From positions 1 to 64,000 of the forward strand of contig JAGWPW010000004.1 in the NCBI GenBank assembly GCA_028870315.1: a DNA stretch of 64,000 bases, written 5' to 3'. The translations under genes were made by a program, and so were the position numbers. Positions 16,084 to 26,738 of this stretch are shown here, one piece after another; position 1 is the first letter of the stretch; the number at the start of each line of letters is the position of its first letter. Source of the stretch: Sphingomonadales bacterium. GTDB lineage: Bacteria; Pseudomonadota; Alphaproteobacteria; Sphingomonadales; Sphingomonadaceae. The notes below the pieces were generated by a model. That model was not told the origin of the DNA. It did not search any database and saw nothing but the letters and a program-made list of their open reading frames with translations.

Positions 16084-17463
16084 TCAGAACCTGAACTGGC
16101 CGAACAGGCCGATCTCGTCATAGGCGCCGCTCGCGCCGGGACTGGCGCCGATCGTCCCGTTCTGCGTCGCGAGCGCACCGTTGGCCACCGCCTCGCGCTT
16201 GGCCACCAGCGCAAGATCGACGATCTGCACCGGCTCCCACTGCACCCCGAGATTGGCATAATGGTCGTGGACTGTGCTCGGCGCATCCAGCCGAGCGATG
16301 GCGCGCACCCTGTCGTAGCGGCCGAACACCGACCATTTGGGGGCAAGCTTCAGGCTGGCGAAAACCGACAGGCCCAGGCTTGAATCCTCGGTCGGGCTGT
16401 TCACGCTGTTATAGTCGCGCGCGTAATAGACTTCGCCGCCAAGCGTGAGGCGCCGGTCCTTGTAGCCGAGCGCGAGATCGGCGCGCCGCGCGGTATGATG
16501 GACGGGGGCGAAGGCGCCGGTGCTGTTCACCGCTTTGCCGAGATGGCCGGCATAGCCGCCGGCTGCCGCGAAGAAGCCCGCATATTCCGCCGCGATCCGC
16601 CCCTCGAAATCGACATGGCGGGTGATGCGGACATCGCCGAAGCCTCCGCCATCGACCGCCGACAGCTGGTAGGAAATCGCGCCATCGGCCAGCTTGCCCA
16701 GCACATGCACTCCCCAATCGGCGGTGTTGCCAAGCTTCAGGCGATCGACCAGCGTGTTTTCGATCTGGCGATAGCCGTAGCGGCTTTCGATATAGCCGAT
16801 CCACGGCAGCGGCGCGGCGCCAAGCCGCAGCGTCAGCGCCGGCGCGAGACGCGCCTGAAGATAGGCATTCTTGACAAGGAACACCCGCGCGCCGGGGCTT
16901 GCCGTGGCTGCGCCATTGGCAGCGCCGCCCGCGCTCGTCGTCGTCGATCCCAGGACATTGCGCACATCGGCGAGCACGCTTGCCGAAAACACCGGATCGA
17001 ACTGGTGATCGACCCCGAAATAGAGCCGTTTGATGTTGAAGCCCATGCCCTCGGCCGGCACCGGTGCGCCATCCGCGGTCTGGTGGATGGTGCTTTCGTT
17101 GAAGAAGGCGGCGAGGTGAAAGCTGGTCGCCGCCGGGACGGCGCTTGCCGCCGCGGGCACGGGGCCTTCCTTCGTGCTCGCGGTGCCGACGGCGGGCGGC
17201 GGCGCCGCAGGCTCGTCGCCATGCGCGGGCGCGGCGGTTGGCGCGACGGGGGCAGCCGGGTGCAACAAGGCGGCGATCGCCGCGTCCTCCTCGGCGACCC
17301 GCTGCTTCAGCGCGTCGATCTGCGCCTGCTGCCGGCGGAGTTCGGTCGTGGCGATCCGCAGCGCCGAAGCCAGCCGCGCGGGCTCGGCGCGCGCATCGGG
17401 GCTGCTGCGCGCAAGCGCGGCGTGCGGGCCGCCGATCGCGGCGGCAAGTGCGAGGAGGGTCAT
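16084..17463 (-). CDS. Putative outer-membrane porin with N-terminal coiled coil
   Basis: Signal peptide, coiled-coil [17 protein letters not shown]-terminal beta strands ending in aromatic FGQFRF; start approximate. Confidence 0.7.
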
Positions 17464-17689
17464 GCCGGCCTGGGTACGCACGCAACTTCTCCTCCCGCCG
17501 GCAAGCGTCGCCGGGCGATCGCCGATCACCTGTCGGGAAGCTCCCGCACATATGTCTATCGAAATGGTAGATATTTTCGCGCGAGGGAAGCAAGGAAATT
17601 TATCAAGTGAAAGAGTAGAGATTTACACAGGCATCGTCAGGGCAGTCGCCCGAACCCCGGGCAGCGCTGGCCGCATTTCGGCGCGATGG

Positions 17690-17797
17690 CCTGTGGCACA
17701 GGGCGTGATTTCGGAAATCACGCTTTGTGCCACAGGACTTTGTTATCGCATCGCTTTTTACCGAAAACCGGTGCCCGCTTTGCGGCGCGATGCGCTA
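17690..17797 (+). repeat. Bipartite stem-loop intergenic repeat, copy 3
   Basis: cctgtggcacagggcgtgatttcggaaatcacgctttgtgccacagg hairpin, then actttgttatcgcatcgctttttaccgaaaaccggtgcccgctttgcggcgcgatgcgcta. Confidence 0.88.
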
Positions 17798-18640
17798 GCT
17801 CCTTTCGGTGAACATCCCGGCGATCATCGCGCGTGTGCCCTCGTTCCAGCGCGCCAGCGGGTTCGCCTCGCTGGTGATGAGCAGATGGCTGGTGAGCTGG
17901 GTGCCGTCCCAGTGATGCAGCGCGAAGCCCGGAGGCTCGTCGGTGATGATCACGCGATCGTCGGGCCGGGCCGGGTCCATCGGCGCGAAGTCCAGCGCCA
18001 CCGCGGCCGCGGTCGAGGGGCAGATGGTGACGGTATGGCCGCGCCAGCGGGTGGTGGCGGCGCGGTGGACATGGCCGGTGGTGATACCGACGATCTGGGC
18101 ATGGCCGGCGATCGCCCCGGCGAAGCGGTCGAGCCACGCCTCGTCGAGGTCGGGGTCCATCCAGGCGATGCCGCTGGCGAAGGGCGGGTGGTGCATCGCG
18201 ATCAGTGTCGGCGTGGTGGGCCGGGCGGCGAGCTGTTCGGAAAGCCAGCGCGCGCGCGCGCCGCAGAAGGCGCCGCCATGGCGGCCGGGCTCGAAAGTAT
18301 CGAGCATGAGGATGCACAAGCCTTCCGCCTCGATCGCATATTGGACGAAGCCGTCATGCATTCCCGCTGCCGGGAAAGCGGCAATCAGCGTGTCGCGCTG
18401 GTCGTGGTTTCCGGGGATCGGCCAGCAGGGAACGCCGAGCGGCGCCAGCGTCGCGCGCAGCGTCGCGAAGCTTTCGGCATCGCCGAATTCGGTGAGATCG
18501 CCGGTCAGCAGCATGAGGTCGGGGCGCTGCGGCGCCGCGGCGATCCGGCCAAGCGCCTGGCGCAGCCGCAGGAGGTTGAGTTCGGGATCGGCCTTGCGGT
18601 CGAAACCGATGTGAATATCGGTGAGCTGGCCGATCAGCAT
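17795..18640 (-). CDS. Metallophosphoesterase, CpdA-like 3',5'-cyclic nucleotide phosphodiesterase
   Basis: QLTDIHIG, LLTGDLTEFG, IPGNHDQRD, MHHPPF, GHVHR metallophosphoesterase motifs. Confidence 0.85.
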   Translation of the reverse strand: MLIGQLTDIHIGFDRKADPELNLLRLRQALGRIAAAPQRPDLMLLTGDLTEFGDAESFATLRATLAPLGVPCWPIPGNHDQRDTLIAAFPAAGMHDGFVQYAIEAEGLCILMLDTFEPGRHGGAFCGARARWLSEQLAARPTTPTLIAMHHPPFASGIAWMDPDLDEAWLDRFAGAIAGHAQIVGITTGHVHRAATTRWRGHTVTICPSTAAAVALDFAPMDPARPDDRVIITDEPPGFALHHWDGTQLTSHLLITSEANPLARWNEGTRAMIAGMFTERS

Positions 18641-18674
18641 TCTCGCACTCTCCTCGCGGCGCGGTCTCGCCGGA

Positions 18675-20414
18675 TCACCCCTGCCGTCGCCGGATGTTCA
18701 CCGCCAGCGCCGGCGCCAGCCGCGATGTGTGATAGGAATGGCACATGACGCAAGTGGAGGGAATCTTCGGCTTGCTCGCCGCCTCGCCAAGATGGCAGCT
18801 GCGGCATTCGGCCAGTCTGGGCAGCAGGACATCGCTGGCGGAGGCCGAGTTTGCCGCCGCGTGGCATTCGGCGCAGCGCGTCTGGCGATGCGCTTCATGG
18901 TCGAACCAGCCATCGGGCAGGTAGCGCGCGGTCTGCGTCACCGGCCGCACCGCAAGCTTGCCGCCGCGCATCTCGGGCTTGTGGCATTCGCCGCAGATGC
19001 CGTCGGGCGCCATCGCCCGCGCGACCGCGCCGCCGGGGGTGAAGCGGGCGTGATAAAGCCCGCCATTGGCATAGCTCGCGCCGAAATCGCCGGGACGCCC
19101 GCGCGTGTCGTCGAGCGGGGTGACGGGCGTGGCCATGTTCGAAAGCTGCGCTTCCATCTGCGCGACATCGCCATGCCGCAGCTTGAGGAAGGTGCCGCCG
19201 ACGCGCGCGAACACGAGGCTGTGGCAGGCTTCGCAATCGCGCTCCATGTCGATGGGCCGGAAGCCGACCCCATCCGGGCTGCGCTGGTGGCAGTCGGCGC
19301 AGTCGAGCGCATGGCCCAAGCCGCGCGCCTCGCCGAGATCGATCGCCATCCGCGCGACCCCGCCCATGCGGTCGAGGTGGGCGCGGTGCGAGAAGGTGAG
19401 CCCGCTGTCCTCATGCGGATGGTCGGCGAGCGAGACGAGGCTGCGCTGACGGGTTTCGGCATTGGTCACGACAGAAGCGCGGAATTCGGGATGCAGCGTG
19501 CCGAAATCGGCGGCATCGCCCAGCTTCGTATCGGCAAGCCGGTCCTTGAGCCCGGCATGGCAATCGGCACAGAACTGCTGGCGCGGCGCTTCCATCGCCT
19601 TCATGCCCTGGTGTTCGACATGGCAATCGATGCAGGCGCCCGGTCCTTCATGGCCGAAGGCATGGCCCACCCCCTGGAGGACGCGGGCGCCAAGGCCCGC
19701 CGGCGCGCGCGCCTCGGCAAGGCGGCCGGCCGGGGCGTGGTCGTGGACATCGCGGTGGCACGCGACGCAGGTTTCGCTGCTTACCGGCTGGAAAGGCTTG
19801 ACGTGGCACGCCTCGCAGCGGTTCGACAGCATGTGATGGGCAAGCGACAGCGCGCCGGGGTTCCACGCCTTGTCGCCGATGACATGCCCTGTCGCATTCG
19901 CCGCCCGCACGCGCGTGCCGTCCTGCGCCAGGGTGAGGTGGCTGGCGATCGGCAGCACCAGGAACACCGCGAGGATCAGCGCGAACAGCGCCCAGGCGAG
20001 CGGGCGTTTGCCCGGCATCACCGCGGCGAGCGCGAAGCCCGCCTTGTCGTCGGCGGGATCGGGGCGGACCTGCGCGGCGCCCTCGATCTCGACGAGGACC
20101 ATGCCATCGGCCTCGCGCGAGATCGTCACCGGGGTCGACCCGAAGCGCAGCTCGGCGCCCGCATCGGCGTCGATTACCGCCTCGGTCACCTGCCGGCCGT
20201 CGAGCGCGAAGCCGCGGTCGCCGACCGCGCGCACGGTGATCCGCCGGCCGGCCGCGGTCAGCGTCGCGTGCCAGGGTTCGACCGCGAGATCGGGCAGATG
20301 CAGGTCGTTCTCGCCGGCGCGGCCGATGGCAAGCGTATCGCCCGCAACCTCGCGGTCGCGCGCGATGCGGCGCCCGTCGGCGGTATAATCGATCTGCCGC
20401 AGCCGAAAGCCCAT
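18675..20414 (-). CDS. FHA domain - TM - decaheme cytochrome c
   Basis: N-terminal FHA motif IGRAGENDLHLPDLAVEPWHATL; TM WALFALILAVFLVLPIAS; ten CXXCH motifs (CEACH, CVACH, CIDCH, CADCH, CADCH, CEACH, CGECH, CAECH, CRSCH, CVMCH). Confidence 0.92.
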   Translation of the reverse strand: MGFRLRQIDYTADGRRIARDREVAGDTLAIGRAGENDLHLPDLAVEPWHATLTAAGRRITVRAVGDRGFALDGRQVTEAVIDADAGAELRFGSTPVTISREADGMVLVEIEGAAQVRPDPADDKAGFALAAVMPGKRPLAWALFALILAVFLVLPIASHLTLAQDGTRVRAANATGHVIGDKAWNPGALSLAHHMLSNRCEACHVKPFQPVSSETCVACHRDVHDHAPAGRLAEARAPAGLGARVLQGVGHAFGHEGPGACIDCHVEHQGMKAMEAPRQQFCADCHAGLKDRLADTKLGDAADFGTLHPEFRASVVTNAETRQRSLVSLADHPHEDSGLTFSHRAHLDRMGGVARMAIDLGEARGLGHALDCADCHQRSPDGVGFRPIDMERDCEACHSLVFARVGGTFLKLRHGDVAQMEAQLSNMATPVTPLDDTRGRPGDFGASYANGGLYHARFTPGGAVARAMAPDGICGECHKPEMRGGKLAVRPVTQTARYLPDGWFDHEAHRQTRCAECHAAANSASASDVLLPRLAECRSCHLGEAASKPKIPSTCVMCHSYHTSRLAPALAVNIRRRQG

Positions 20415-20419
20415 GACGC

Positions 20420-21283
20420 CTACCCGTAGTAGAAGACGCTGACGATATGCGCGGCAAGCGCGGCGATCAGCGCGACGGTGAGCGGGATGTGCACATAGAG
20501 CCAGACTTCGAGCAGCGCGCGCAGCTGCATCTGCCGGCGCATTTTTTCGAGCAGCGCGCGGCGGCGGCCGAGCAGGCTGCGCACCCGCGCCAGCGCCGCC
20601 GGATCGGCCTGCGAGCCCTCAAGCCCCGCGAGCGCGGCAAGCGTCGCGCAATCGGGCGCATGGCCCGAAAGCCGCCGCCGCAGCCCGGCGGCAAACGGGC
20701 TCTGCGCCATCGCCTCGCGCACGCGCTCGGCCTCTGTGCCGGGGAGGGGCTGCGCGGCATCGCCGAGCTGCCGGTCGATCGCGCGCAGCCCCTCGACCAT
20801 TTCGGGCTGGGTCTGCTCGCCCTCGCCGCGGCTGAGGCTGGCGGGAAGCGCGGCATAGACCGAAATGCCATAGACCCCCGAGAGGATGACCAGCATCATC
20901 AAGGTCCAGGCCAGCGTCGCAAGGTTCAAGCCGAGCCTGAGCCCGGTGTGCAGCGTGGCGATGACGATCAACGCAAGGCCGAGCCAGACATGCGCCGAGG
21001 TCCAGGCCTTGAGCGACCAGCGCCCGCGCGTCATCGCCCGCTTGCGGATGCCGAGCAGCGCCAGCCAGGCGATGATGAGCGCGCCGATCGTGCCCAGCGT
21101 ATAGCCGAACCACGTTCCGCCATAAGGGCCGGGGGCGGCGGGAATGAAAAGGAAGCCGGCAAGCGCCAGCAGCGCCAGCACCAGCCCGATCTTGAGCCAG
21201 CGGAACCGGCGATGCCGCAGGAAGCTTTCATGCGCGCCCGGCCGGTTGGCCCGGCCGACGGGTGCGGCGGAGCGGGTGGCCAT
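20420..21283 (-). CDS. Cytochrome-b-like integral membrane protein
   Basis: About four TMs with His in SAHVWLGLALIVIATLHTGLR and LYVHIPLTVALIAALAAHIVSVFYYG; ATGA overlap with upstream gene. Confidence 0.72.
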   Translation of the reverse strand: MATRSAAPVGRANRPGAHESFLRHRRFRWLKIGLVLALLALAGFLFIPAAPGPYGGTWFGYTLGTIGALIIAWLALLGIRKRAMTRGRWSLKAWTSAHVWLGLALIVIATLHTGLRLGLNLATLAWTLMMLVILSGVYGISVYAALPASLSRGEGEQTQPEMVEGLRAIDRQLGDAAQPLPGTEAERVREAMAQSPFAAGLRRRLSGHAPDCATLAALAGLEGSQADPAALARVRSLLGRRRALLEKMRRQMQLRALLEVWLYVHIPLTVALIAALAAHIVSVFYYG

Positions 21284-23835
21284 CACTCCTGCTCCTCGAG
21301 CCGGGCGACGGTCAGGAAGCCCTCGGGCGCGACGCGGATCGCCGCCCCGGTCGGGCAGGCGCGCACGCAGGCCGGCCCGCCCTCGATGCCTGAGCACATG
21401 TCGCATTTGATTGCCTTCTTGGGGGCATCGACCCCCGCCGGCATATGCTTCTTGCGCCACTTCTTCGAAGGCTCGCCCGGGCCGGGGCCGGCGCCGAACA
21501 GCAGCCACGAGAGCAGCGGCGGCTTTTTCGGCGGCACGCTGTCCATGCGGATCACGCCATAGGGGCAATTCCTCTGGCAATTGCCGCAGCCGATGCAGGT
21601 CTCGTCGATGAACACCTCGCCGTCGGGGCCGCGCTTGATCGCGTTGGGCGGGCAATCGGCCATGCAATGCGGATGCTCGCAATGCCGGCAACTGGTGGGA
21701 ACATGGAGATGGGCATAGGTCTTGCCCGCCTCGCGGTTCAGGCGCGACAGGCCTTCGTGGCTGTCGGCGCAGGCCTTTTCGCAATTGTCGCAGCCGACGC
21801 AGAGCTTCTCGTCGATGAGCAGCACATCGGTCGCCTCGCCGATGCCGTTATCGACGAGAAACTGCGCGGTCTCGGAATACATGTCGACCGCGCCCGAAAA
21901 GCTTTCCTTGCGGCGCTCGATGAAGCTGTTGACCTGCTGGCGCCCGCGCATGTCCTCGCGCGCCTTGGCCATCAACGCGGGCTTGGCCGCGAGCAGCCGC
22001 GCGAAGCGATCGCCGGGCACGCGGATCACCTCGGACTTGACCGCCGCCTTCACCGTCGCGTTGCGCGGCAGCCCGTCGATCAGCGCCATCTCGCCGACAT
22101 AGGAGCCGGCGGGAAGATAGGAGAGGAACACCGGCCGCCCGCCGATCATCCGCTCGACGATCATCGAGCCGACGCGGATGACGAAGATGTCGTTGTCCTC
22201 CCCGCCCTCGGTGATGATCGCCTCGCCCGCCTTGACCTGCATGATCTTCGCGCCGTCGACCACATCGGCGACATCGGCGGGGCTGAGCCCCGAGCCGAGC
22301 ATCTGGAGGAGCTGGCGTTCGGTCGAGATGCGTTCGATCGCGCGCTTCGCGCTGGGCACCTGGCTTTGCAGCTTGAGCGCGGCATTGCGCGAGATCTCGA
22401 CGCAGATCGCGTCCTCGGCCGCAACCACCGTCGCCCCGCGCTTGCGTCCCGAGATCAGCCCGACCTCGCCGAAGATCGAGCCGGTGCCGATCGGCACCAC
22501 CCTGGTTGTGTCCTGCGGATCGACGCGGACATGGACCGAGCCCTCGGCGATCGCGAAAAGCGAGGAGCCGGGTGCGTTTCTTTCGAAGATCGTCTCGCCC
22601 CGGCGATACTGGCGCACGGTCGAATCGAGCATGAACTCGCGCATCTGGAGCGGGCTCATCGCTTCGAGAATGCTGATCCGCGTGCGCAGCAGTTCGAGCC
22701 AGTCATCGACGCTGCGCCGCGGCGCAATGTCGCGGAACCGCGCTTCGAGCAGGGGTTCGTCGGCGGGCTTGAGCGTGGTGTTGCCATTGATGAACTCGAC
22801 GACGTCATAGCCCTGGTTCATGCAATGCTTGATCAGCGGATAGCCCGCGAGCGCGCCGATCACGAAGATGCCGGGCGCGCTCGATTCGAAGACCGGCGAC
22901 AGCGTCGGGAAGGCCAGCCGGTCGTTCGAGGTGAACTCGATCCCGCAATTCTCGACGAAGGCGCGCGGCGGCGCCGAACCGATGCGGGCGATGATGCGGT
23001 CGCAGCGGATGCGCTCCTCGCCGTCGCGGGTGGCGAGCGTGATCCAGCCCGGCTCGATCGCCTTGGTCTCGGTCTCGTAGCGCACGGTGAGCTTGCCGGC
23101 CTCGTGGTCGGCGACCAGCGCCAGCGCATTGGGCTCCTTGGCGGTCGCGAAGCTTTCGCGGACATTGGCCGAACGCGGCGCGCGGTTGAGCACGGTGACG
23201 ACATTCTTCTGTGCCGGATCCTCGGCAAGCCCGCGCGCGTTCTCGATGCCGGCATCGCCGGTGCCGACGACGACGATATGCTCGTCGAGCACCGCATAGG
23301 GATCGTCGAGCTGATAGGTGACATGCGGCAGATCGGCGCCGGGGCAGCGCATCAGATTGGGATTGCCCTGCGTGCCGATGGCAAGGATCACCGTCTCGGC
23401 CTCGATGACCTCGCCATTGGTCAGCTCGATCGCATAGGGCGGCTCGTGGCGCTGGATTTCGGTGGTGCTGGTCGAGCCGTCGCGCGCGCGGCTGACGATT
23501 TTCTGGACCGAGCCGGCAATCGCCGGGCCGAGCCCGCGAATCGCCTTCACCTCGGCGTTGTACTTGACGTTGATCGCCAGCGACGCGGTCTTCTCGTTCC
23601 AGTTCTGGAGGATCGCCTCGCGCTTGCCCGCGTCGAACTCCTGGTCAGAACGCAGGATGAGCTGCGATGGCGTTGCCATCACATGCTTGCCCTTCTGGTA
23701 TTTGAAGATCGTGTCCGAGAGGTGATCGGTCTTTTCGAGCAGCACATGGCCAAGGCCGAGCGCGGCGGCGCGGCCGGCGGCGCTGAGTCCGGCAGGCCCC
23801 GAGCCGACGATCGCGATGCGAAACCGCTCTGCCAC
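21283..23835 (-). CDS. FAD-dependent NAD(P)H-type oxidoreductase - 2x cNMP-binding - 4x [4Fe-4S] fusion
   Basis: IAIVGSGPAGLSAAG and VVVGTGDAGIENARG dinucleotide folds; FGEVGLISGRKRGATV and VGEMALIDGLPRNATV cNMP cassettes; CVGCDNCEKAC, CRHCEHPHCMADCP, CIGCGNCQRNCP, CDMCSGIEGGPACVRACP; GTG start inferred. Confidence 0.9.
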   Translation of the reverse strand: MAERFRIAIVGSGPAGLSAAGRAAALGLGHVLLEKTDHLSDTIFKYQKGKHVMATPSQLILRSDQEFDAGKREAILQNWNEKTASLAINVKYNAEVKAIRGLGPAIAGSVQKIVSRARDGSTSTTEIQRHEPPYAIELTNGEVIEAETVILAIGTQGNPNLMRCPGADLPHVTYQLDDPYAVLDEHIVVVGTGDAGIENARGLAEDPAQKNVVTVLNRAPRSANVRESFATAKEPNALALVADHEAGKLTVRYETETKAIEPGWITLATRDGEERIRCDRIIARIGSAPPRAFVENCGIEFTSNDRLAFPTLSPVFESSAPGIFVIGALAGYPLIKHCMNQGYDVVEFINGNTTLKPADEPLLEARFRDIAPRRSVDDWLELLRTRISILEAMSPLQMREFMLDSTVRQYRRGETIFERNAPGSSLFAIAEGSVHVRVDPQDTTRVVPIGTGSIFGEVGLISGRKRGATVVAAEDAICVEISRNAALKLQSQVPSAKRAIERISTERQLLQMLGSGLSPADVADVVDGAKIMQVKAGEAIITEGGEDNDIFVIRVGSMIVERMIGGRPVFLSYLPAGSYVGEMALIDGLPRNATVKAAVKSEVIRVPGDRFARLLAAKPALMAKAREDMRGRQQVNSFIERRKESFSGAVDMYSETAQFLVDNGIGEATDVLLIDEKLCVGCDNCEKACADSHEGLSRLNREAGKTYAHLHVPTSCRHCEHPHCMADCPPNAIKRGPDGEVFIDETCIGCGNCQRNCPYGVIRMDSVPPKKPPLLSWLLFGAGPGPGEPSKKWRKKHMPAGVDAPKKAIKCDMCSGIEGGPACVRACPTGAAIRVAPEGFLTVARLEEQE

Positions 23836-23948
23836 TGTGCCCCCCGTCCGCCGCCTTGCCCCTGCGGCTGATTGCAAACCGGCCCGCTTTGGGCGAAACC
23901 GGCCCCGCCTCCATAGCCGCAAAACCGCCCGGGCGAGAAACCGAAACA

Positions 23949-24839
23949 ATGCCAAAATCGAGCGCACTGCAAATAAATTCTGGCCGCATCGCCATAATTG
24001 TCGCCGGGCTGGTGCTGGCGGCGGCGCTGTGGATCGGTCATGCCCGCACGCCATCGGCGCCATCGGCGCCACCGCCCGCCACCCCCGCCCCGATGAGCGC
24101 GCCGCCGCCGCAGGATGCCGATGGCTGGCGGCGGCTCGGCGAGAGCCAATCCGGGGCCGGGCGTTATGCGGATGCGGTCGGCGCCTATGAAAAAGCGACC
24201 GCGCTCGCCCCCCAGCGCGCCGAGCTGTGGTCTGCGCTTGGCGAGGCGCGGGTGATGGCGAGCGCGCATGATCCGATGCCGCAGGCGGCGATCGACGATT
24301 TCGACCGCGCGATCGCCCGCGATGCCCGCGATCCGCGCGCGAGATATTTCCTTGCCGTCGCCCGCGATCTCAGGGGCGATCACCGCGGGGCGATCGCCGA
24401 CTGGCTGGCGCTGCTCGCCGATACCCCGCCTGGCGCGCCCTGGGAAGCCGATCTCAGGCGCACGATCGTCCAGGTCGGGCGGATCAACCACATCGCGGTC
24501 GCGGCCCGGCTCGCCGCGATCCGCCAGCCGCCGCCCGCCGTCCCCGCGCCGCCGCCGGCGCTCGCCGGCATTCCCGGCCCCACGACCGAGGACCTGCGTG
24601 CCGCCTCGGCGATTCCGCCCAGCCAGCAGCAGGCGATGGCGCAGGGCATGGTCGCCCAGCTCGAAGCGCGGCTCGCCGCCGACCCGCATAATGGCGAGGG
24701 CTGGGCAATGCTGGTGCGCAGCAAGCTGACGCTGGGCGGGCCGCAGGCGGCGGCGCAGACGCTCGACAAGGCGCTGGCCGCCGATCCCGCCGATGCCGCG
24801 ATGCTGCGCGCCGAGGCGCGGGCGATGGGGGTGCGGTGA
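23949..24839 (+). CDS. Membrane-anchored TPR protein, CcmI/CycH-like (cytochrome c biogenesis type)
   Basis: N-terminal TM, TPR GWRRLGESQSGAGRYADAVGAYEKATALAPQRAELWSALGEA; C-terminal second TPR block. Confidence 0.72.
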   Translation: MPKSSALQINSGRIAIIVAGLVLAAALWIGHARTPSAPSAPPPATPAPMSAPPPQDADGWRRLGESQSGAGRYADAVGAYEKATALAPQRAELWSALGEARVMASAHDPMPQAAIDDFDRAIARDARDPRARYFLAVARDLRGDHRGAIADWLALLADTPPGAPWEADLRRTIVQVGRINHIAVAARLAAIRQPPPAVPAPPPALAGIPGPTTEDLRAASAIPPSQQQAMAQGMVAQLEARLAADPHNGEGWAMLVRSKLTLGGPQAAAQTLDKALAADPADAAMLRAEARAMGVR

Positions 24840-25905: not shown

Positions 25906-26105
25906 CCGCAAGCGCGGCGCGCATCTGGCGCCGAAGTGTCCCGTTTTGGCACGCCCGCGCCTGGTTCGCGGCTTTGTCGATCCTGCGCAAAGCCATTTTG
26001 GCAACTGCGGTTTGCCCGCTGCCTTGTCGTCTTTGCAGGGCCAATGGCACGCAGCGGTGGCCGATCGGCTTGCCGGGCGCAATGCTTGCAACAGGAGACG
26101 TTTTG

Positions 26106-26738
26106 ATGGCTGGTCTGAAGCATCGAATGCAATCGATTATCAAATCCGCGGCCTGCGGGCTGGTGGTGGGCTGTGTCGCGCTCGGCGCACCCGCGCAGGC
26201 GACGACTCTTGCCGGCAACACCGCCACGCTCGAATGGGGCACGCTGGCGAGCAGCCCCTGGCAACTTGCATCGCTTTCGCCGACCACAACCGGATCGAAC
26301 CCGGGGTTCGTCAACACCTTCGGGGCGACGGTGATCGGCAGCGCTAGCCCGACCTTCGCCGATCCGGCGCTGGGGGTGAATGTCAATGTCGTCGGCAATC
26401 AGGTGATCGTTTCCGAAAGCGCCGCCTCAACCAGCTTCGCCACACTGGCGTTCAATGGCTTCGTGCTGCGTGATCTCACCAATCCCTTCACCAGCGCCGC
26501 CCTGGTGACCGCCTCGGTTCCGGGCTTTTCCGCCGCCGATGTCGGCGTTATCGCCGGTGATCTCTGGGTCAATTTCGCCGGGCTGACCATCGGCAGCGGC
26601 ACCGAGGTCACGCTGAATATGAACGGCGCGGCACAGCCGGCGGTCCCCGAAGCCGCGACCTGGATGATGGCGATTGCCGGTTTCGCCGCATTGGGGGTTG
26701 TGCTGCGTCGCGAGCGCGCCCGCGTGGTATTCGGCTGA
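26106..26738 (+). CDS. Secreted protein with PEP-CTERM-type sorting signal
   Basis: Signal peptide; C-terminus VPEAATWMMAIAGFAALGVVLRRERARV matches the PEPxxWA-CTERM layout. Confidence 0.82.
   Translation: MAGLKHRMQSIIKSAACGLVVGCVALGAPAQATTLAGNTATLEWGTLASSPWQLASLSPTTTGSNPGFVNTFGATVIGSASPTFADPALGVNVNVVGNQVIVSESAASTSFATLAFNGFVLRDLTNPFTSAALVTASVPGFSAADVGVIAGDLWVNFAGLTIGSGTEVTLNMNGAAQPAVPEAATWMMAIAGFAALGVVLRRERARVVFG

Follow-up and report, generated by a model that had tools for sequence, protein, structure and literature searches.

A gene cluster resembling the predicted PCC4 electron-transfer system, with putative cyclic-nucleotide control, in a Sphingomonadales genome

Four adjacent genes for redox and signalling proteins

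The stretch of DNA analysed here (the window) comprises 64,000 nucleotides, positions 1 to 64,000 of the forward strand of contig JAGWPW010000004.1 (assembly GCA_028870315.1), from a Sphingomonadales bacterium. Four consecutive genes, g1 to g4, run in the same direction on the minus strand from position 23835 to position 17795, and an earlier note on the window had singled them out as an apparent operon for an undescribed electron-transfer/signalling system. The positions given there hold, as do the gaps of 5 nucleotides between g2 and g3 and of 34 nucleotides between g3 and g4; the sole factual slip concerns the g1/g2 junction at 21283, which had been read as an ATGA overlap and is in fact TGATG, with an overlap of 1 nucleotide. 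Conservation of the neighbourhood, which the note had offered as a check, was followed in a scan of genome contigs. It brought up 11 independent loci that carry g1, g2, and g3 together in this order, with g3 identities of 30-54%. Because this order is repeated across independent loci, chance is excluded as an explanation for the grouping.

The first gene, g1 (21283..23835, minus strand; 850 amino acids, GTG start), encodes a fusion protein in which a flavoprotein of the type that binds flavin adenine dinucleotide (FAD) and reduced nicotinamide adenine dinucleotide (phosphate) (NAD(P)H) is followed by two cyclic nucleotide monophosphate (cNMP)-binding domains and four [4Fe-4S] motifs. Pfam matches were obtained for Pyr_redox_3 (4e-25), for two cNMP_binding stretches (2e-33), and for Fer4_7/Fer4_11, and PF13247 scored 43 bits against a cut-off of 26.2; a motif and hydropathy count revealed no transmembrane (TM) segment. 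The YpdA/thioredoxin-reductase-like FAD and NAD(P)H module spans residues 1-352 (22780..23835), the first cNMP domain residues ~383-490 (22366..22689; cassette FGEVGLISGRKRGATV), the second residues ~500-625 (21961..22338; cassette GEMALIDGLPRNATV), and the Fe-S motifs, which are of the HycB/DmsB type, residues 672-833 (21337..21822), all on the minus strand. In a 12-sequence alignment, all 16 of the 16 Fe-S cysteines are invariant, and so are the phosphate-binding Glu and Arg of both cNMP cassettes (E457/R466 and E582/R591).

The position of the YpdA active-site Cys is occupied by Ala (GSGPAG) in every aligned row, and g1 scores 104.6 bits against the YpdA equivalog, the cut-off of which is 339.9. 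A function as a YpdA-type (bacillithiol-)disulfide reductase was rejected on these grounds, and judging by its sequence the flavoprotein part more probably acts as an NAD(P)H dehydrogenase and feeds the Fe-S chain. While g1 appears to be assembled from parts also seen in AegA/YgfT, in ferredoxin-like subunits of the HycB/HydN kind, and in YpdA/TrxR-like flavoproteins, every match to these families falls far under the equivalog cut-offs, and g1 differs from them in domain order and in having two cNMP domains between its flavin and Fe-S parts.

The product of g2 (20420..21283, minus strand; 287 amino acids) is a predicted cytochrome b-like inner-membrane protein with five TM segments, as judged by hydropathy. 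It contains the motifs W94x3H98x13H112 and W261x3H265x13H279 and, at residue 135, SGVYG. The four TM histidines, which form the two HX13H pairs, are invariant in 12/12 homologues, and g2 would thus be expected to carry two b hemes. A Pfam search with g2 gave no match above cut-off (Ferric_reduct, E 0.006).

The third gene, g3 (18675..20414, minus strand; 579 amino acids), encodes a decaheme cytochrome c anchored by a single TM segment at residues 135-165. The periplasmic decaheme region corresponds to residues 200-559 (18738..19817, minus strand), and ten CXXCH motifs are present in each of 12/12 g3 sequences. Residues ~1-100 (20115..20414, minus strand) form a degenerate FHA/YscD-like cytoplasmic domain. 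Pfam matches are to Cytochrome_C7 (5e-12) and to Yop-YscD_cpl/FHA (4e-8 / 0.0017), the best N-terminal match being YscD-like. In the FHA-like domain the GR is kept, the Ser and Arg of SRxH are replaced in 12/12 rows (EPWH, DPHH, GLHH, and others), and the Asn is lost; the SRxH Ser and Arg are gone from further g3 homologues inspected as well. Since these residues are missing, phosphothreonine binding by g3 is not expected, and phospho-gating through the FHA domain was rejected.

The last gene, g4 (17795..18640, minus strand; 281 amino acids), encodes a putative class III (calcineurin-like) cyclic-nucleotide phosphodiesterase that has no TM segment and matches Metallophos in Pfam (8e-15). The metallophosphoesterase motifs DIH, GD, GNHD, HHPP, and GHVH are conserved in 9 sequences. 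The protein is close to CpdA and SpdA, yet stays under the NCBIfam equivalog cut-offs.

Most of what the earlier note had read in these four proteins is thus supported. The FAD/NAD(P)H, cNMP, and [4Fe-4S] parts of g1 are borne out by Pfam and by motif counts; the paired histidines and possible b heme of g2 are matched by two invariant HX13H motifs, and the proposed phosphodiesterase activity of g4 by its catalytic motifs. For g3, the single TM segment and the ten heme-binding motifs stand, while a functional FHA domain does not.

Partner genes, a cyclase, and their co-occurrence with the cluster

On plasmid pMSHV of Sphingobium herbicidovorans, the cluster adjoins a set of multiheme genes. The partner set that recurs across loci comprises a tetraheme c554-like protein, an HbpS-like lipoprotein, a ~612-amino-acid protein, and a ~1,330-amino-acid decaheme protein with LVIVD repeats. 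All eight genes lie in a single co-directional run at L046 (g1-g2-g3-g4-tetraheme-HbpS-barrel-decaheme), and L075, a locus from a different family within the phylum, has seven of them in such a run (g1-g2-g3-HbpS-barrel-decaheme-tetraheme). In the genome from which the window comes, the tetraheme, HbpS, barrel, and decaheme genes are all on another contig, C75, and were therefore not visible to the earlier note. The observation made there is real and understated: it misses the barrel, the tetraheme and 1,330-amino-acid decaheme proteins, and a nucleotide cyclase (see below), each encoded elsewhere in the genome.

The 612-amino-acid protein ends in the C-terminal aromatic residue typical of outer-membrane barrels, and its structure model is a beta-barrel that matches the 18-strand AlgE (E 3e-13), with a mean predicted local distance difference test (pLDDT) score of 51 and scores of about 60-80 in the strands. 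It has no Pfam match and no sequence match by profile in the Protein Data Bank (PDB), where profile searches with g2, with the 1,330-amino-acid protein, and with the barrel returned nothing informative.

Co-occurrence was scored in 301 Sphingomonadales genomes, using thresholds of E<=1e-100 for g1 and E<=1e-80 for the 1,330-amino-acid protein. The two are present in exactly the same 75 genomes, and all 75 also have g3. The distance between the two genes is <20 kb in 41 of the 75; in the remaining 34 they are unlinked or on separate contigs. Some genera hold genomes both with and without the system, so that the two must have been gained or lost jointly more than once. At the level of the phylum, the 1,330-amino-acid protein was found in 11 genomes, all of them among the 15 that have g1. 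In one of the other four (G450), HbpS and the barrel are present up to a contig end and the decaheme gene was not found anywhere in the assembly; either the assembly lacks it or it is truly absent.

In several loci, a gene for a CHASE2 protein with a class III nucleotide cyclase domain (Pfam) lies near the cluster, and at L076 it directly follows the phosphodiesterase gene. In the genome of the window, the CHASE2 cyclase gene is found on contig C69, flanked by a CHAT-like gene and by a conserved gene for a 240-amino-acid protein. The catalytic metal Asp and the transition-state Asn/Arg are present. With one cluster-linked CHASE2 cyclase as query (E<=1e-30), a homologue was detected in 75/75 genomes with the system and in 2/75 genomes without it (Fisher 5e-25 for same-family genomes, a p-value not corrected for phylogeny). 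The association also holds within genera in which the distribution of the system is patchy. In ~10 of the 75, the cyclase homologues are only diverged ones of ~30% identity, in places beside the cluster (e.g., in G201 and G108).

These data bear on the possibility that the cNMP domains of g1 are vestigial structural spacers, and that the cyclase and the phosphodiesterase serve some unrelated process in the hosts they share. Folds of this kind can be structural, and nucleotide binding by g1 is a prediction. Such an explanation is nevertheless improbable, because each of the two domains keeps its phosphate-binding Glu and Arg throughout the 12 aligned sequences, the cyclase accompanies the system even inside genera where the latter is patchy, the phosphodiesterase gene sits within the operon, and relatives that have no FAD module still keep the cNMP domains. 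Since the cyclase, the g1 receptor, and the g4 phosphodiesterase go together, it is plausible that they form a dedicated circuit.

At several loci (L016:6841-20950, L037:5262-18494, L038, L044, and L079:1-2382), genes for a CHAT-domain protein, the CHASE2 cyclase, the 240-amino-acid protein, an FhaC-type two-partner secretion porin, and a secreted protein of 1,800-2,700 amino acids adjoin the tetraheme gene, and the triad of CHAT, CHASE2, and 240-amino-acid genes is also the one found on C69. This set is a possible surface partner of the conduit. A second copy of g1 in genome G301 (L073:4869-12362) adjoins a FIST-domain nucleotide cyclase, not a CHASE2 cyclase. Pycsar anti-phage defence was considered and rejected: the PADLOC matches reflect shared cyclase and cNMP domains, and g1 is a redox protein without a TIR domain or TM segment.

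Relation to PCC4 and other multiheme systems

He, Barco, Emerson, and Roden predicted in 2017 a type of porin-cytochrome cluster, PCC4, that has genes for a porin, for an inner-membrane protein (IMP) with an Fe-S (pfam13247) gene upstream, and for cytochromes of 4, 5, and 10 hemes (PMC5566968). The PCC4 IMP is described as having five TM segments, SGXXG on TM4, and WX3HX13H on TM3 and TM5 (PMC5566968), and g2 has each of these features in the same places. In PCC4 Subgroup II, the pfam13247 gene is immediately upstream of the IMP gene; g1 occupies this position and, at L074 and L078, is fused with g2 into one open reading frame, just as the Fe-S gene and the IMP gene of PCC4 are annotated as one gene in Oceanospirillum (PMC5566968). 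The counterpart of the porin is the 612-amino-acid AlgE-like barrel, which is found in relatives and on C75, outside the window. The heme set differs, being 10 (g3), 4, and 10 rather than 4, 5, and 10. Unlike PCC4 as described, the present system has the FHA-decaheme protein g3 in place of one with five hemes, and its cNMP-Fe-S protein is fused to an NAD(P)H flavoprotein. Neither a cNMP link nor an FHA domain appears for PCC4 in the main text of PMC5566968, and the open-licence literature gave no report of a cNMP link.

An indirect link is provided by the planctomycete locus L110, where a barrel, 10-heme, 5-heme, and 4-heme proteins, a cNMP/Fe-S protein, and an HX13H-bearing protein, truncated where the contig stops, are encoded together; the porin and the 10-heme protein are homologous to partner genes of the present system. 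On the basis of the published motif and gene description and of this locus, we class the system as a variant of PCC4; its heme set keeps it from being a strict member. The earlier description of it as undescribed was too strong, as the IMP motifs, Fe-S gene, porin, and multiheme set belong to the PCC4 prediction (PMC5566968). Systems of this kind have been predicted before; what appears to be new is the control by a cyclic nucleotide and the cyclase as a near-obligate companion.

PCC3 likewise places an HX13H inner-membrane protein beside multiheme cytochromes, but the latter often have >20 hemes (He et al. 2017, PMC5566968). An alphaproteobacterial PCC3-like locus (L100:9194-14342) combines cytochromes of 24 and 27 hemes with an HX13H protein that is a distant relative of g2 (E 3e-17); its Fe-S/FAD protein is a separate one and has no cNMP domains. 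From this gene content, PCC3 too may couple to NAD(P)H.

The idea of a heme conduit from the inner membrane to the surface, with an outer-membrane barrel, is shared with MtrCAB, PioAB, and MtoAB. Assignment to the MtrCAB/PioAB type was rejected: no MtrB/PioB or MtrA family match was obtained, and the barrel model matches AlgE instead. In DsrMKJOP, Hmc, and Tmc, a cytoplasmic Fe-S protein, a membrane cytochrome b, and a periplasmic multiheme cytochrome c follow one another, and the genes studied here suggest the same order. They differ from those systems in that the operon encodes no Fe-S protein besides g1 and showed no NrfD-type partner; matches at the domain level are weak and partial.

A predicted electron route and its control

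The reading that we favour, with modest confidence and from sequence comparison, is that g1-g4 make up the cytoplasmic and inner-membrane part of an electron-transfer system of the PCC4 type, with a cNMP-switched, NAD(P)H-fed route to envelope hemes. Electrons from NAD(P)H would enter the FAD of g1 and pass through its four [4Fe-4S] clusters to the two b hemes of g2, which would carry them across the inner membrane to the ten hemes of g3 in the periplasm. The next carriers would be the tetraheme c554-like protein and the 1,330-amino-acid decaheme/LVIVD protein, working with the AlgE-like outer-membrane barrel; passage of electrons across the outer membrane is conjectural. A cyclic nucleotide produced by the CHASE2 receptor cyclase, and degraded by g4, would bind to the pair of cNMP domains that separates the flavin part of g1 from its Fe-S part, and would allosterically switch electron entry. 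The earlier note had outlined much of this: its NAD(P)H, Fe-S, b-heme, and decaheme route and its cyclic-nucleotide input are supported, and the gating by a phospho-protein partner is not.

On thermodynamic grounds we favour outward electron flow, which runs downhill from NAD(P)H. The opposite direction is the one that was proposed for PCC4, which was found in genomes of Fe(II) oxidisers and modelled as an electron uptake path to the quinone pool (PMC5566968). Electrons from an extracellular or periplasmic source, such as Fe(II), Mn(II), or another low-potential donor, would then flow through the decaheme proteins, g3, and g2 to the quinone pool, or via g1 to NAD(P)+; HX13H cytochromes can indeed be quinone-reactive (PMC5566968). 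We regard inward flow as rather unlikely here, since the fusion of a TrxR/FNR-like flavoprotein to a chain of Fe-S clusters implies that the system is coupled to NAD(P)H, and transfer from c-type heme to NAD(P)+ is uphill unless the donor has a low potential. Moreover, the named hosts are mostly relatives of Novosphingobium and Sphingobium, which are typically heterotrophs.

The cluster could instead be a redox sensor, in which the heme chain reads the redox state of the envelope and the cNMP and FHA-like domains pass on a cytoplasmic signal. The cNMP receptor, cyclase, and phosphodiesterase, the fusion of an FHA-like domain to a decaheme protein, and the signalling-type neighbours (CHAT, CHASE2) in several genomes are in line with this. 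However, no component has an output domain (DNA-binding, kinase, or GGDEF), the phospho-binding residues of the FHA-like domain are lost, and the number of hemes, the barrel, and two extra multiheme proteins are excessive for sensing, so that a purely sensory role has little likelihood.

Several observations weigh against the NAD(P)H-fed, cNMP-switched conduit that we favour. The AlphaFold model of g2 is of low confidence and gave no usable match against the PDB in Foldseek. The gene order, the conserved cofactor motifs, and the companion genes with their co-occurrence are observed, whereas loading of the cofactors, binding of a nucleotide, the gating itself, the direction of flow, and a final electron acceptor or donor are predictions. 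The cNMP-Fe-S proteins at L099:7723-12649 and L110:9268-12384, each beside an HX13H protein, have no FAD module. In some relatives, then, electrons are neither taken from nor given to NAD(P)H, and as these loci are distant ones, the combination of cNMP domains with Fe-S clusters may have preceded the NAD(P)H module. No g4 match was found in the locus stretches of L010, L011, and L012, the last of which stops at about that point. Three genomes (G301, G333, and G449) have a g1 homologue and no 1,330-amino-acid partner; g1-g3 can therefore work with another terminal module. Finally, AlgE is an exporter, and MtrB has 26 strands; a heme wire through the 612-amino-acid barrel is hypothetical, as a barrel of AlgE size is narrower than MtrB, and the pLDDT of the model is 51.

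A divergent gene for a CcmH/NrfG-type TPR protein (23856..24839, plus strand; start uncertain, 23856-24093) adjoins g1 in the window and in most relatives. It is probably a synteny neighbour, with a role as heme-lyase helper being possible. No convincing conserved FNR/CRP box was found upstream of g1 among 15 upstream regions. Upstream of the cluster in one relative (L003:4948-5580), and at equivalent positions in L002 and L004-L007, the gene for a PycTM-type (Pycsar effector-like) membrane protein is flanked by those for glutamate dehydrogenase and the TPR protein. Downstream of g4, the window encodes a porin-like outer-membrane protein (16084-17529, minus strand) with a weak OmpO-family match, which is not conserved with the cluster in relatives. 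At 26082-26738 (plus strand), the window encodes a protein with a PEP-CTERM-like sorting tail (PEAATWMMAIAGFAALGVVLRRER).

The analysis connects a predicted conduit type, PCC4, both with NAD(P)H and with a cyclic-nucleotide circuit that is complete, and the co-occurrence is unusually clean (75/75). To our knowledge, no described respiratory or extracellular electron conduit is under direct second-messenger control of this kind. That an NAD(P)H-to-envelope-heme complex is opened or closed by a cyclic nucleotide, with a receptor cyclase and a phosphodiesterase of its own, is a tentative proposal, which we hold somewhat less firmly than the electron-transfer assignment itself. If it is true, transmembrane electron flow would be gated directly by a second messenger in bacteria not known for extracellular electron transfer. 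The hosts include culturable relatives of Novosphingobium and Sphingobium, and an anonymous gene cluster of 2017 becomes a testable enzyme.

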